Shown one piece after another: positions 23,292 to 26,713 of a stretch of 64,000 nt of DNA (the first letter of the stretch is position 1; each line of letters opens with the position of its first letter). Origin of the DNA: Moorella glycerini (GTDB lineage: Bacteria; Bacillota; DSM-521; Neomoorellales; Neomoorellaceae); NCBI RefSeq assembly GCF_009735625.1, contig NZ_CP046244.1:248001-312000 (forward strand). Reading direction: 5' to 3'. Under the pieces are notes generated by a model. It was given only the letters and a program-made list of their open reading frames with translations, made no database searches and had not been told where the DNA came from. The position numbers were made by a program, and so were the translations under genes.

Positions 23292-24104
23292 TTAATGGGC
23301 GTGCAGGTGGAAATAGCCCTGGTGGTGGTGCTCATGGAAGGCTGCGTCAATAAGGTTGACCCGCATCAAGAGCTCGCGGTTGACTAGGATTTCCGGGGGC
23401 GAGCCTGCTGCTGCCAGGTGGTGGTCTTCCCCCAGGACGAAAACCCGGTCGGCAATTACCGGGACAATAGCCAGGTCGTGGGTGGCGGTGATGATGGTCT
23501 TGCCGGCCTGGTTTAGTTTAACCAGCATTTCCACCAGCCAGCGCTGGCTGCGGGGGTCCAGGCCGGCCGTCGGTTCGTCGAGGATCAGCACCTCCGGGTT
23601 GCTGGCCAGGACGGCTCCCAGGGCTACCTTTTTCCTTTCCCCGCCGCTCAGTTTATGGGGGGGACGATCGGCCAGGGCTTCCAGTTCCAGCAGGGCCAGG
23701 AGGGAATCCACCCGGGCTTTAACTTCGGCCGCCGGTAATTCCAGCTGCAGGGGGCCAAAGGCCAGCTCTTCCCTGACGCTGGCGTTAAAGAGCTGGGCCT
23801 CGGAATTCTGGAAGACAAACCCCACCCGGCGACGGAAGGCCAGAAAGAAATCTTCATCCTCAAAACAGGCCTCGGTCAGTTCCTGGTCCTCAAATTTCAC
23901 CGTTCCCTGCCGGGGGAAAATCAGGCCGTCCAGGAGCCGCTGGAGGGTGGACTTGCCCGAGCCGTTGGCGCCCAGGAGAACCACTTTTTCCCCGGCGTTA
24001 ATGGTTAAGCTGATCCCTTCCAACGCGGGCCGGCCGTCGTCATAAGCGTAGCTGACATTATGCAGAGTATAGAGGGCTTTAGCCACCAAGGTAATAATCG
24101 CCAC
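23292..24104 (-). CDS. cbiO: Energy-coupling-factor ABC ATPase for cobalt/nickel uptake
   Basis: 270 residues. Walker A GANGSGKST, Q-loop VGFVFQNSEAQLF, signature LSGGERKKVALG, Walker B VLILDEPTAGLD and switch His ATHDLA are all present. A His-rich tail (HEHHHQGYFHLHAH) is a likely metal-binding end, typical of CbiO/NikO. The start overlaps the end of cbiQ by 26 bases; GTG 24104 or an internal TTG/GTG a few codons on are possible. Last gene of the cbiMQO unit. Confidence 0.92.
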   Translation of the reverse strand: MAIITLVAKALYTLHNVSYAYDDGRPALEGISLTINAGEKVVLLGANGSGKSTLQRLLDGLIFPRQGTVKFEDQELTEACFEDEDFFLAFRRRVGFVFQNSEAQLFNASVREELAFGPLQLELPAAEVKARVDSLLALLELEALADRPPHKLSGGERKKVALGAVLASNPEVLILDEPTAGLDPRSQRWLVEMLVKLNQAGKTIITATHDLAIVPVIADRVFVLGEDHHLAAAGSPPEILVNRELLMRVNLIDAAFHEHHHQGYFHLHAH

Positions 24105-25023
24105 CTAAAAGGATTAATCCCGCCAGGATGATCCCGGCGAAGCGCCAGTAGTCCCCCGGAGCCAGGCTGAAATCTTCCAGGCAACGTCCTTCCCCGCGAT
24201 AGCCCCGGGCCACCATGGCCTGGTAGACTTCTTCGCTTAAAGCATATGCCCTGGTCAGGAGGTTTCCCATGGCCCCGGCCAGGAAATGGCGGTTCATTTT
24301 TATATCTGACTTGCCCACCAGGCGACTCTGGCGGGCTGTAAACATCTCTTCTGTGGTTTTGAGCAGCAGGAAGATATAACGATAGGTCATGCTAAAAATC
24401 AGGACAAAAATCCTGGGTACCCGTAAAACCCGCAGGGCCCTGAGCAGGGCCGCCCAGCGGGTGGTCATGGTCACCAGGAAAGCCAGGGAGACAGTCACTC
24501 CCACCCGGAGGATGAGGAGCCCGGCCCCGGCCAGGCCCTGGCGGGTAATGGCCAGATCCGCCGGCAGTTGCCAGGGCCCCAGGTTTACAGGCCCTCCCAG
24601 GTGCAACAGGACCACCAGGGGCTCGCCCGGGCGCACCCAGTTAAAGAGGGAGGGAAAAACCATTATCCCCGTAAACAGGGGCACAAAGAGCCAGACGCGC
24701 TTTAGATATGGGCCTAAAGGTATCCGTGAAAGGTAAGCCAGGAGAATTACCCCCCCGTATATGCTAACCAGGGTAAAGGGGTGGCGGGCCAGGCCGGCCA
24801 CCACGGCCAGCCACAGCAAGCCCACAAGCTTTAACCTGGGATCCAGGCCCTGGAGCCAGCCCCGGCGGGCGGCCAGTTCCTCGGCAAAAAGGACCTCCTG
24901 GCCAAAGTGGGCCAGGTCCTGTAGGGTCTTCTCGCCAAAACCCGGCCGCCGTTTGCTGCCCCCGATGCGGACGGGTGCATAGTTGTTTTGCCTTAACCAG
25001 GATGGTAAATTTTCAGCGGGCAT
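24079..25023 (-). CDS. cbiQ: Cobalt/nickel ECF transporter T component
   Basis: 314 residues. A soluble N-terminal stretch of about 60 residues ends in LQGLDPRLKLVGLLWLAVV, the family opening; helices follow, and the coupling helices carry AMVARGYRGEG, the conserved Ala-Arg-Gly motif that contacts the ATPase. Transmits ATP hydrolysis to the substrate-binding CbiM. It overlaps cbiM by 11 bases and cbiO by 26, so the three are co-translated. Confidence 0.92.
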   Translation of the reverse strand: MPAENLPSWLRQNNYAPVRIGGSKRRPGFGEKTLQDLAHFGQEVLFAEELAARRGWLQGLDPRLKLVGLLWLAVVAGLARHPFTLVSIYGGVILLAYLSRIPLGPYLKRVWLFVPLFTGIMVFPSLFNWVRPGEPLVVLLHLGGPVNLGPWQLPADLAITRQGLAGAGLLILRVGVTVSLAFLVTMTTRWAALLRALRVLRVPRIFVLIFSMTYRYIFLLLKTTEEMFTARQSRLVGKSDIKMNRHFLAGAMGNLLTRAYALSEEVYQAMVARGYRGEGRCLEDFSLAPGDYWRFAGIILAGLILLGGDYYLGG

Positions 25024-26065
25024 GGTAGTTGGCTTCCGGTTTTTCTTTCCGGGTCGTTAATTTGTGGACTACCAGGAAAATGGCTATAATTATCCCCAGT
25101 CCCACCAGGGCCGACAGGATATAACCCAGGGCCTCGGCCCCAAAGCTGCCCGCCAGCCCAGGGACGGTATAATCCGGGAAGAGGGCATGGGACCAGCTGG
25201 CGGCCAGTTTAACCATCCCGGCCGGGACAAAGCCCAGCATCTGCTGTAACTCTTCCGGTGCCCATTCGCCCCAGGCCGTACCACTAGCCAGGATACCCAG
25301 CGGTGATAGCAGGATCAGGATACCGAGCCCTATAGCCAGTCCCTTGAGCCCCGGGCCGCCGGCCCCGGCCGCAGCTGCCGTCCTGGCCTCCGGGTAAAGC
25401 TGGAGTAAGCCGGGGTTAGCCCGTTCAAGGTAGCGGACCACCAGGCCGGTAACTATCCCCTCGGCCGGGCCGGCCACCAGGAGATGGGCCAGGGCCATGG
25501 CCGGGACGGCCAGGGCGAGGGGGTAGGGACTGTAAAGGGGTACCCCGCTGGCTGTATGGAAAAGGACCGGCTGGAGGCCGAATTCTACCGCTGCCGCCAG
25601 GGCGGCCAGGTTGATCCCTGTAAAACCGGCTATTGTAGCCGCCAGGACCCGGCGGCCGGGGGACACCGGCGACCTGCCGGTCAAGAGTTGATAGACATAA
25701 AAACTTGCGAAGGGCTGGATAAAAGCGATGTTAAAGGCGTTGGCGCCAAAGGCCAGGATACCGCCGTCGCCAAAGAAGAGGGCCTGGATGGCCAGGGCAA
25801 TGGAAAGGCCAATGGCAGCTGCCCAGGGGCCGAGGAGGATGGCGAGGAGTGCACCACCGGTGGCGTGGGCCGTGGTGCCGTCGGGGATGGGTATGTTGTA
25901 CATCATAATGGTAAAGGAAAAGGCGGCGCCAATGGCCAGGAGGGGCACCTGCCTGGCCTTCAAGGTGGCCCGGACCTTCCGGGCTGCCGCGCCCCAGACA
26001 GGCAGCATAGCTGCCCCAAAAACGGCACAGGTCTGGGGACTCAGGTAACCGTCGGGAATATGCAT
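25013..26065 (-). CDS. cbiM: CbiM/NikM metal-binding membrane protein with fused PDGLE-type domain
   Basis: 350 residues. The mature-like N-terminus MHIPDGYLSPQTC is the metal-site motif of CbiM/NikM, where the free amino group, His2 and later His bind Co or Ni (IPDGTTAHATGGALLA). About seven helices form the S component; a further roughly 100 residues (LGILILLSPLGILASGTAWG to the end, with two helices) resemble the CbiN/PDGLE partner, so no separate cbiN is needed. Cobalt versus nickel cannot be decided; both are needed by an acetogen (corrinoid proteins; CODH). RBS AAGGAGG 9 bases upstream. Confidence 0.9.
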   Translation of the reverse strand: MHIPDGYLSPQTCAVFGAAMLPVWGAAARKVRATLKARQVPLLAIGAAFSFTIMMYNIPIPDGTTAHATGGALLAILLGPWAAAIGLSIALAIQALFFGDGGILAFGANAFNIAFIQPFASFYVYQLLTGRSPVSPGRRVLAATIAGFTGINLAALAAAVEFGLQPVLFHTASGVPLYSPYPLALAVPAMALAHLLVAGPAEGIVTGLVVRYLERANPGLLQLYPEARTAAAAGAGGPGLKGLAIGLGILILLSPLGILASGTAWGEWAPEELQQMLGFVPAGMVKLAASWSHALFPDYTVPGLAGSFGAEALGYILSALVGLGIIIAIFLVVHKLTTRKEKPEANYHAR

Positions 26066-26091: not shown

Positions 26092-26188
26092 ATGGCCAAA
26101 GAAAAAGGCCATAAGACTACTACCCTGCCTCCAGGCAGGCCAGCAGACCTCCATGGCCCACGCTTACAAAAACAACCTTGCTGAGCTA
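26092..26188 (-). promoter_or_regulatory. Attenuator-like structured leader of cbiMQO
   Basis: The leader contains GGCCAT (26158-26153), a nested hairpin CCTGCC-TGGA-GGCAGG, ATGGCC (26112-26107) with TTTTT directly after it, and a second GGCCAT (26097-26092) just before the ribosome site. Pairing of the first two copies makes a terminator; pairing of the last two would disrupt it. No B12-box of a cobalamin riboswitch was recognised. The ligand, if any, is unknown. Confidence 0.5.
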
Positions 26189-26217
26189 ATTATACAGGCT
26201 TGAGATCCCGAAAGCAA
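26189..26217 (-). promoter_or_regulatory. Promoter for cbiMQO
   Basis: TTGCTT at 26217-26212, a 17-bp spacer and TATAAT at 26194-26189, placing the start about 120 bases before cbiM. Confidence 0.65.
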
Positions 26218-26263: not shown

Positions 26264-26713
26264 TCAATCCCCCCCCTGCCAGCCGTGGCGCCGGCAGCGG
26301 CCCCGTCCCGGGCCGGAAGCCGGGCTGGAGATTTCTGCACTGCCGCAGCGGGGGCAGGTTCCTGTTCCCTCCGTTTCTGGTTCCCATTCATGGCCACATT
26401 CCTCACAGCGGGCCTTCGGCCCGGCCAGGCGGTAAACCCCGCCCTCCACCCGGATAGCCTTACCATTAATCAGGGCATCGGCGATCTTACCCCGGGCTGC
26501 GTTGAGGATACGGAAAAAAGTCGGCCGCGAGACCCTCATCCTGGCGGCGCAGTCTTCCTGCTCCAGGCCTTCTATATCCTTCAGGCGAATGGCTTCCAGT
26601 TCTTCCACTGCCAGGACAACTTCTTCCAGCTGGCGTAAAGGTACTGCTGCCGGCTTAAAATAAGTGATCCCGGGCATAAATTCTACCCGCCGGCACTTGG
26701 GTGGCCTCGGCAT
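26264..26713 (-). CDS. DUF134 HTH regulator with C-terminal zinc ribbon
   Basis: 149 residues. The DUF134 start [10 protein letters not shown] is followed by [17 protein letters not shown] and a helix-turn-helix of sigma-70 region 4 kind: [19 protein letters not shown], then [19 protein letters not shown]. Residues about 108-130 add a zinc ribbon (CEECGHEW ... CPRCGS) not present in the short family members. The C-terminal tail is Gly/Arg/His-rich. Lying just upstream of cbiM on the same strand, with its own promoter, it may sense metal or regulate the importer; this is context only. Confidence 0.8.

Follow-up and report, generated by a model that had tools for sequence, protein, structure and literature searches.

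The window analysed here, a stretch of 64,000 nucleotides from the 3.56 Mb genome of Moorella glycerini, carries on its minus strand the genes cbiM, cbiQ and cbiO, which encode a cbiM/nikM-type ECF S component with a PDGLE domain (25013..26065; PF01891, PF13190, NF005598), an ECF T component (24079..25023; TIGR02454, PF02361) and an ECF ATPase (23292..24104; PF00005; models for ECF ATPases and for cbiO also rank among the top matches but stay under their cut-offs). Upstream of these genes lies a leader of about 120 nt after TATAAT (leader and intrinsic terminator at about 26182-26102), preceded by a promoter-like site read from the sequence, TTGCTT-17-TATAAT (26189..26217, minus strand; TTGCTT 26217-26212, TATAAT 26194-26189). 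A sequence-only reading of this DNA had given the leader its own SigA promoter. The -10 hexamer of the site is perfect, but the -35 hexamer matches at only three of six positions and the site is absent from the list produced by a consensus scan. Comparable promoter-like sites are present in the leaders of other members of the genus. The gene directly upstream of the leader (26264-26713, minus strand) encodes a DUF134 domain and, behind it, a short zinc-ribbon stretch resembling HypA. This DUF134 gene was set aside as a candidate regulator because the other loci have different neighbours.

The three six-base elements picked out by the sequence-only reading, GGCCAU (26158-26153), AUGGCC (26112-26107) and GGCCAU (26097-26092), are present on the minus strand, as is the nested CCUGCC/GGCAGG hairpin. 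The first two belong to a terminator stem-loop (26107..26159, minus strand; model match 51.3 bits), whose 5' arm runs GGGCCAUG.. from 26159 and whose 3' arm ends in AUGGCC at 26112-26107, followed by the U-run UUUUU (26102..26106). The terminator that had been claimed is a strong one, as the leader up to the U-run folds at -38.3 kcal/mol with a z-score of -3.3 against shuffles (0/200). Nested within it is the inner hairpin CCUGCC-UGGA-GGCAGG (26124..26139, minus strand), a second hairpin of the C-NGRA-G type. The alternative stem that had been proposed, in which elements 2 and 3 would pair and reach the ribosome site of cbiM, did not hold up: the pairing leaves AAGGAGG (26081-26075, minus strand) untouched, and in an alignment of five leaders element 3 changes to GGCCGG or GGCCAC in relatives without a compensating change. 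The role of the third element (26092..26097) is uncertain, and it is restricted to the cbiM leaders of this genus. The conserved alternative is rather a local hairpin, unnamed in that reading, formed by element 1 with the GGUC right behind it (GGCC-AUGGA-GGUC, 26146..26158, minus strand), which would be the antiterminator and the presumed binding site.

A short hairpin of the form NNCC-ANGRA-GGNN is common to the leaders of related cbiM/nikM genes, and comparison of these leaders reveals an RNA family in which a hairpin CC-A(U/C)G(G/A)A-GG competes with a terminator, with covariation in both structures. As the 5' arm of the terminator consists of the 5' strand and loop of the hairpin, only one of the two structures can form at a time. 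A MAFFT alignment of 17 leaders, built without fitting to structure, shows 93.4% pairing in the terminator stem, including a loop position that switches from U-A (9) to C-G (7), and 90.6% pairing, with two-sided changes, in the hairpin stem. Among 66 distinct covariance-model elements, in an alignment fitted to the terminator model, the terminator is 97.3% paired and the hairpin 93.9%, again with two-sided changes, and each of the stem pairs adjacent to the loop is C-G with at most one exception among the 66. Covariation, whose absence among relatives the sequence-only reading had named as its own refutation, was found for elements 1 and 2. The computed energy places the terminator about 11 kcal/mol ahead of the alternative, so that off is the default state and read-through needs stabilisation of the small hairpin or an effect during transcription. 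The leader combines an intrinsic terminator with a mutually exclusive conserved structure and is a candidate intrinsic-terminator attenuator.

The leader and its relatives have no match in Rfam at gathering score, and a permissive scan of the leader returned nothing near. The absence of a cobalamin-riboswitch box is confirmed, as RF00174 is unmatched in the window and also, with permissive settings, in a 281-base stretch; two cobalamin matches among the related loci are separate RNAs (in L010 and L015) outside the leader element. A NiCo-type riboswitch variant, which had also been suggested, is rejected: at gathering score the covariance model RF02683 finds no sequence or structure match in the window, in this genome or in ten other genomes of the genus. 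NiCo riboswitches do occur in other genera of the phylum, and the known ones are four-stem aptamers mostly linked to efflux genes; the likeness to the leader studied here is one of nickel/cobalt homeostasis. The other options of that reading, a protein-bound attenuator or a new element, fit better, and a metal-linked attenuator outside the known riboswitch classes is supported.

The small hairpin is often present in several copies. Of 108 distinct elements, 74 carry a further C-(A)NGRA-G hairpin, located in the terminator loop or no more than 120 nt upstream, far above the shuffle expectation of about 1.5 upstream and 0.2 inside, as would be expected of a protein-binding site. Inner copies are found in 29 of the 108 elements (0.17 in shuffles), and the inner hairpin of the window counts as one of these further copies. 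In far-upstream sequence, pentaloop copies with stems of at least four pairs occur in 0/60 cases. The loop is ANGGA in 63 and ANGAA in 47 of 121 rows. Number and spacing of the further copies vary among elements and a conserved junction is absent. A short and simple hairpin repeated at variable spacing would point to a protein-binding site more readily than to an aptamer.

With model R2 at E<=0.001, 106 of 398 genomes of the phylum, from 44 families, carry the element, against an E-value expectation of about 0.4 genomes. Among the first downstream genes in 107 cases are those for CbiM (21), DUF3842 (8), an ECF S component (8), a CobN-type chelatase (7), family-5 binding proteins (6, five of them matched by NikA models), corrinoid-associated methyltransferases (6), FmdE (5), ZnuA (5) and CooT (4). 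The CbiM share is inflated, since cbiM/nikM leaders served to train the first model and some loci had been collected for their cbiM gene; the other downstream genes emerged from the genome searches. In two genomes LarC and then nikM follow the element. That the element precedes many genes of nickel/cobalt uptake, chelation and corrinoid metabolism in Clostridia-type bacteria, and that these constitute a regulon, is well supported. The genome of M. glycerini has three leaders of this type, located before cbiM in the window, before a ZnuA-like metal ABC transporter (G000:C1:3396258-3396311) and before DUF3842-cooT. The last of these (L125 1014-1202, minus strand, and upstream), GGCCACGAGGAGGUC, was recognised by eye as a variant whose loop is longer, and similar variants are found in L081 and L097.

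Across the 398 genomes, PF10133, the profile of CooT, has a match in 118, of which 117 lie above its cut-off and were used in the association table. CooT is present in 88 of the 106 genomes with the motif and in 29 of the 292 others (odds ratio 44, p 4e-44, by a test without a tree model). The association also holds when only genomes carrying CODH as well as CbiM are compared (odds ratio 51, without a tree model), and when collapsed to families the table reads 34, 10, 8 and about 89, the last value assuming 141 families (p about 3e-16, without a tree model). General nickel metabolism as the cause of this link was rejected, as CODH and CbiM are weaker predictors of the element than CooT and CODH adds no effect within CooT genomes. 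DUF3842 was likewise rejected as the main factor because its specificity is below that of CooT. Under laxer filters, a weak element turns up next to cooT in several of the 29 CooT-bearing genomes for which none had been listed. Within the 300 nt that precede cooT, 80 CooT loci together have 23 hairpins on the coding strand and none on the opposite strand, and many of these cooT leaders follow the order promoter, hairpins, terminator. A leader on cooT itself fits autogenous control, which is common for regulators, but it would also be seen in an ordinary regulon member, and CooT may track the element merely through shared regulon membership.

The CooT of this genome is a clear member of its family by profile (PF10133, 91.9 bits, cut-off 27) and by fold (model pLDDT 93; best structural match 6fan, Z 12.3, rmsd 1.2 over 62 residues), and it is 97-98% identical to CooT of Moorella mulderi and M. 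stamsii. As to RNA binding, the structure comparison gave no pointer: only CooT structures stand out, and the weak matches, which include ATP-synthase epsilon and RimM, are uninformative. CooT is reported to form a dimer with a single nickel bound at 9 nM, and nickel is reported to rescue Rhodospirillum rubrum that has lost CooT (PMC6006190). It has been described as a nickel-binding CODH accessory protein of unclear function (PMC6006190; PMC10230548). RNA binding by CooT (PF10133; structures 6fan, 5n76) is undescribed in the papers examined, and a search of a limited collection of papers turned up neither an account of this RNA nor one that links CooT to RNA.

The element, its two exclusive covarying structures, its repeated hairpins, its regulon and its tracking by CooT are well supported. 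Protein binding, CooT as the protein, and the direction of the metal effect and the metal behind it are inferences. We tentatively read the leader as an attenuator responding to nickel/cobalt, where a protein, CooT being the foremost candidate, would hold the small hairpins and block termination when metal is scarce. The transcript alone would fold into the terminator, leaving cbiMQO off. Under scarcity of nickel (or cobalt), a trans-acting protein would bind the short C-(A)NGRA-G hairpins; with the first hairpin held, the 5' strand of the terminator would be occupied and the polymerase would read through to the uptake genes. The likeliest candidate is CooT, a small dimeric nickel binder whose own gene has the same leader, and metal binding to CooT would release the RNA. 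Possibly, CooT-family proteins in general could be antiterminators that respond to nickel, bind RNA through a C-(A)NGRA-G hairpin code and control a whole nickel/cobalt regulon, including their own gene, in many families of one phylum.

The same attenuator could be served by a different RNA-binding protein, with CooT a mere target of the nickel/cobalt regulon, which we consider somewhat unlikely. Eighteen motif genomes lack CooT by profile, some of them having strong elements, and in 16 of these that were searched again no PF10133 match above the cut-off appeared even at E<=10. Their downstream regulon genes are convincing: the element precedes an ECF S component in eight of the 16 and in others LarC-nikM, nickel-type (NikA) ABC transporters, FmdE or corrinoid genes. 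Conversely, Desulfobacterota have CooT without the element, the hairpin being near cooT in 1 of 10 of their loci and in 39 of 70 other CooT loci. DUF3842 adjoins cooT and is present in most motif genomes, though in many non-motif genomes too, and among the proteins tested none tracks the element as CooT does, CODH and CbiM being weaker and DUF3842 less specific.

A protein-free riboswitch, with nickel, cobalt or a corrinoid bound directly by the tandem hairpins, perhaps through a loop-loop contact as in guanidine-II, is improbable. The strongly conserved ANGRA loops, the frequent tandem arrangement and the 18 genomes that have the element without CooT would suit it, but conservation is confined to a single tiny hairpin, whose further copies vary in number and spacing without a conserved junction, and the tracking by CooT would then rest on regulon membership alone. 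Guanidine-II (mini-ykkC) RNAs likewise consist of small hairpins in tandem with short conserved loops, yet no Rfam match to this class was obtained, the loop is ANGRA here and ACGR there, and one hairpin here overlaps the terminator strand. That the leader is an ordinary constitutive terminator or a chance repeat is very hard to believe. Terminators are common, but here the loop sequence is conserved, both of the mutually exclusive structures covary, the downstream genes form a coherent set and the element occurs far more often than expected by E-value.

The proposed attenuator resembles protein-dependent antitermination, with an RNA family and a candidate sensor that we would rate as new. In the LicT/SacY (RAT) and ANTAR (EutV, NasR, AmiR) systems, a protein stabilises short hairpins that overlap a terminator, which leads to read-through, and the same arrangement is proposed here. 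The element nevertheless lacks the bulged stem of RAT sites, and in place of two ANTAR-type hexaloop hairpins with A1 and G4 its conserved loop is an ANGRA pentaloop closed by C-G. The signal is apparently nickel/cobalt and the candidate protein comes from another family. CsrA/RsmE, a dimeric binder with repeated sites, offers a further likeness, as roughly half of the loops read ANGGA and sit in hairpins closed by C-G. Most of the remaining loops read ANGAA, which lacks the GGA core; moreover, it is the terminator and not the ribosome site that the element overlaps, and the regulon is one of nickel/cobalt.

If this mechanism is true, acetogens, sulfate reducers and syntrophs, which rely on CODH/ACS, hydrogenases and other nickel enzymes, would possess an RNA-level nickel/cobalt regulon that is absent from Rfam. 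It would give CooT, whose role has been described as unclear (PMC6006190), a candidate function open to direct testing, and would mark genes without an assignment (DUF3842, an ECF S component and corrinoid-associated methyltransferases) as metal-linked.

Several minor observations accompany the survey. An ECF S component with the stretch LLPMHIPVLLAGF is found behind the element in CooT-less genomes (L147, L149, L152, L155, L156, L157, L080 and L129) and is perhaps metal-linked. CpaM-type corrinoid-associated SAM-dependent methyltransferases recur behind the element or beside its genes (L075, L079, L150, L151 and L152). In a single genome (G020; L092 427-486, plus strand), the element precedes a nuoABC-like operon, an unusual target. 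Elsewhere in the window, at 1064-1360 on the minus strand, there are matches to Group II intron domains (RF02001, RF01998).
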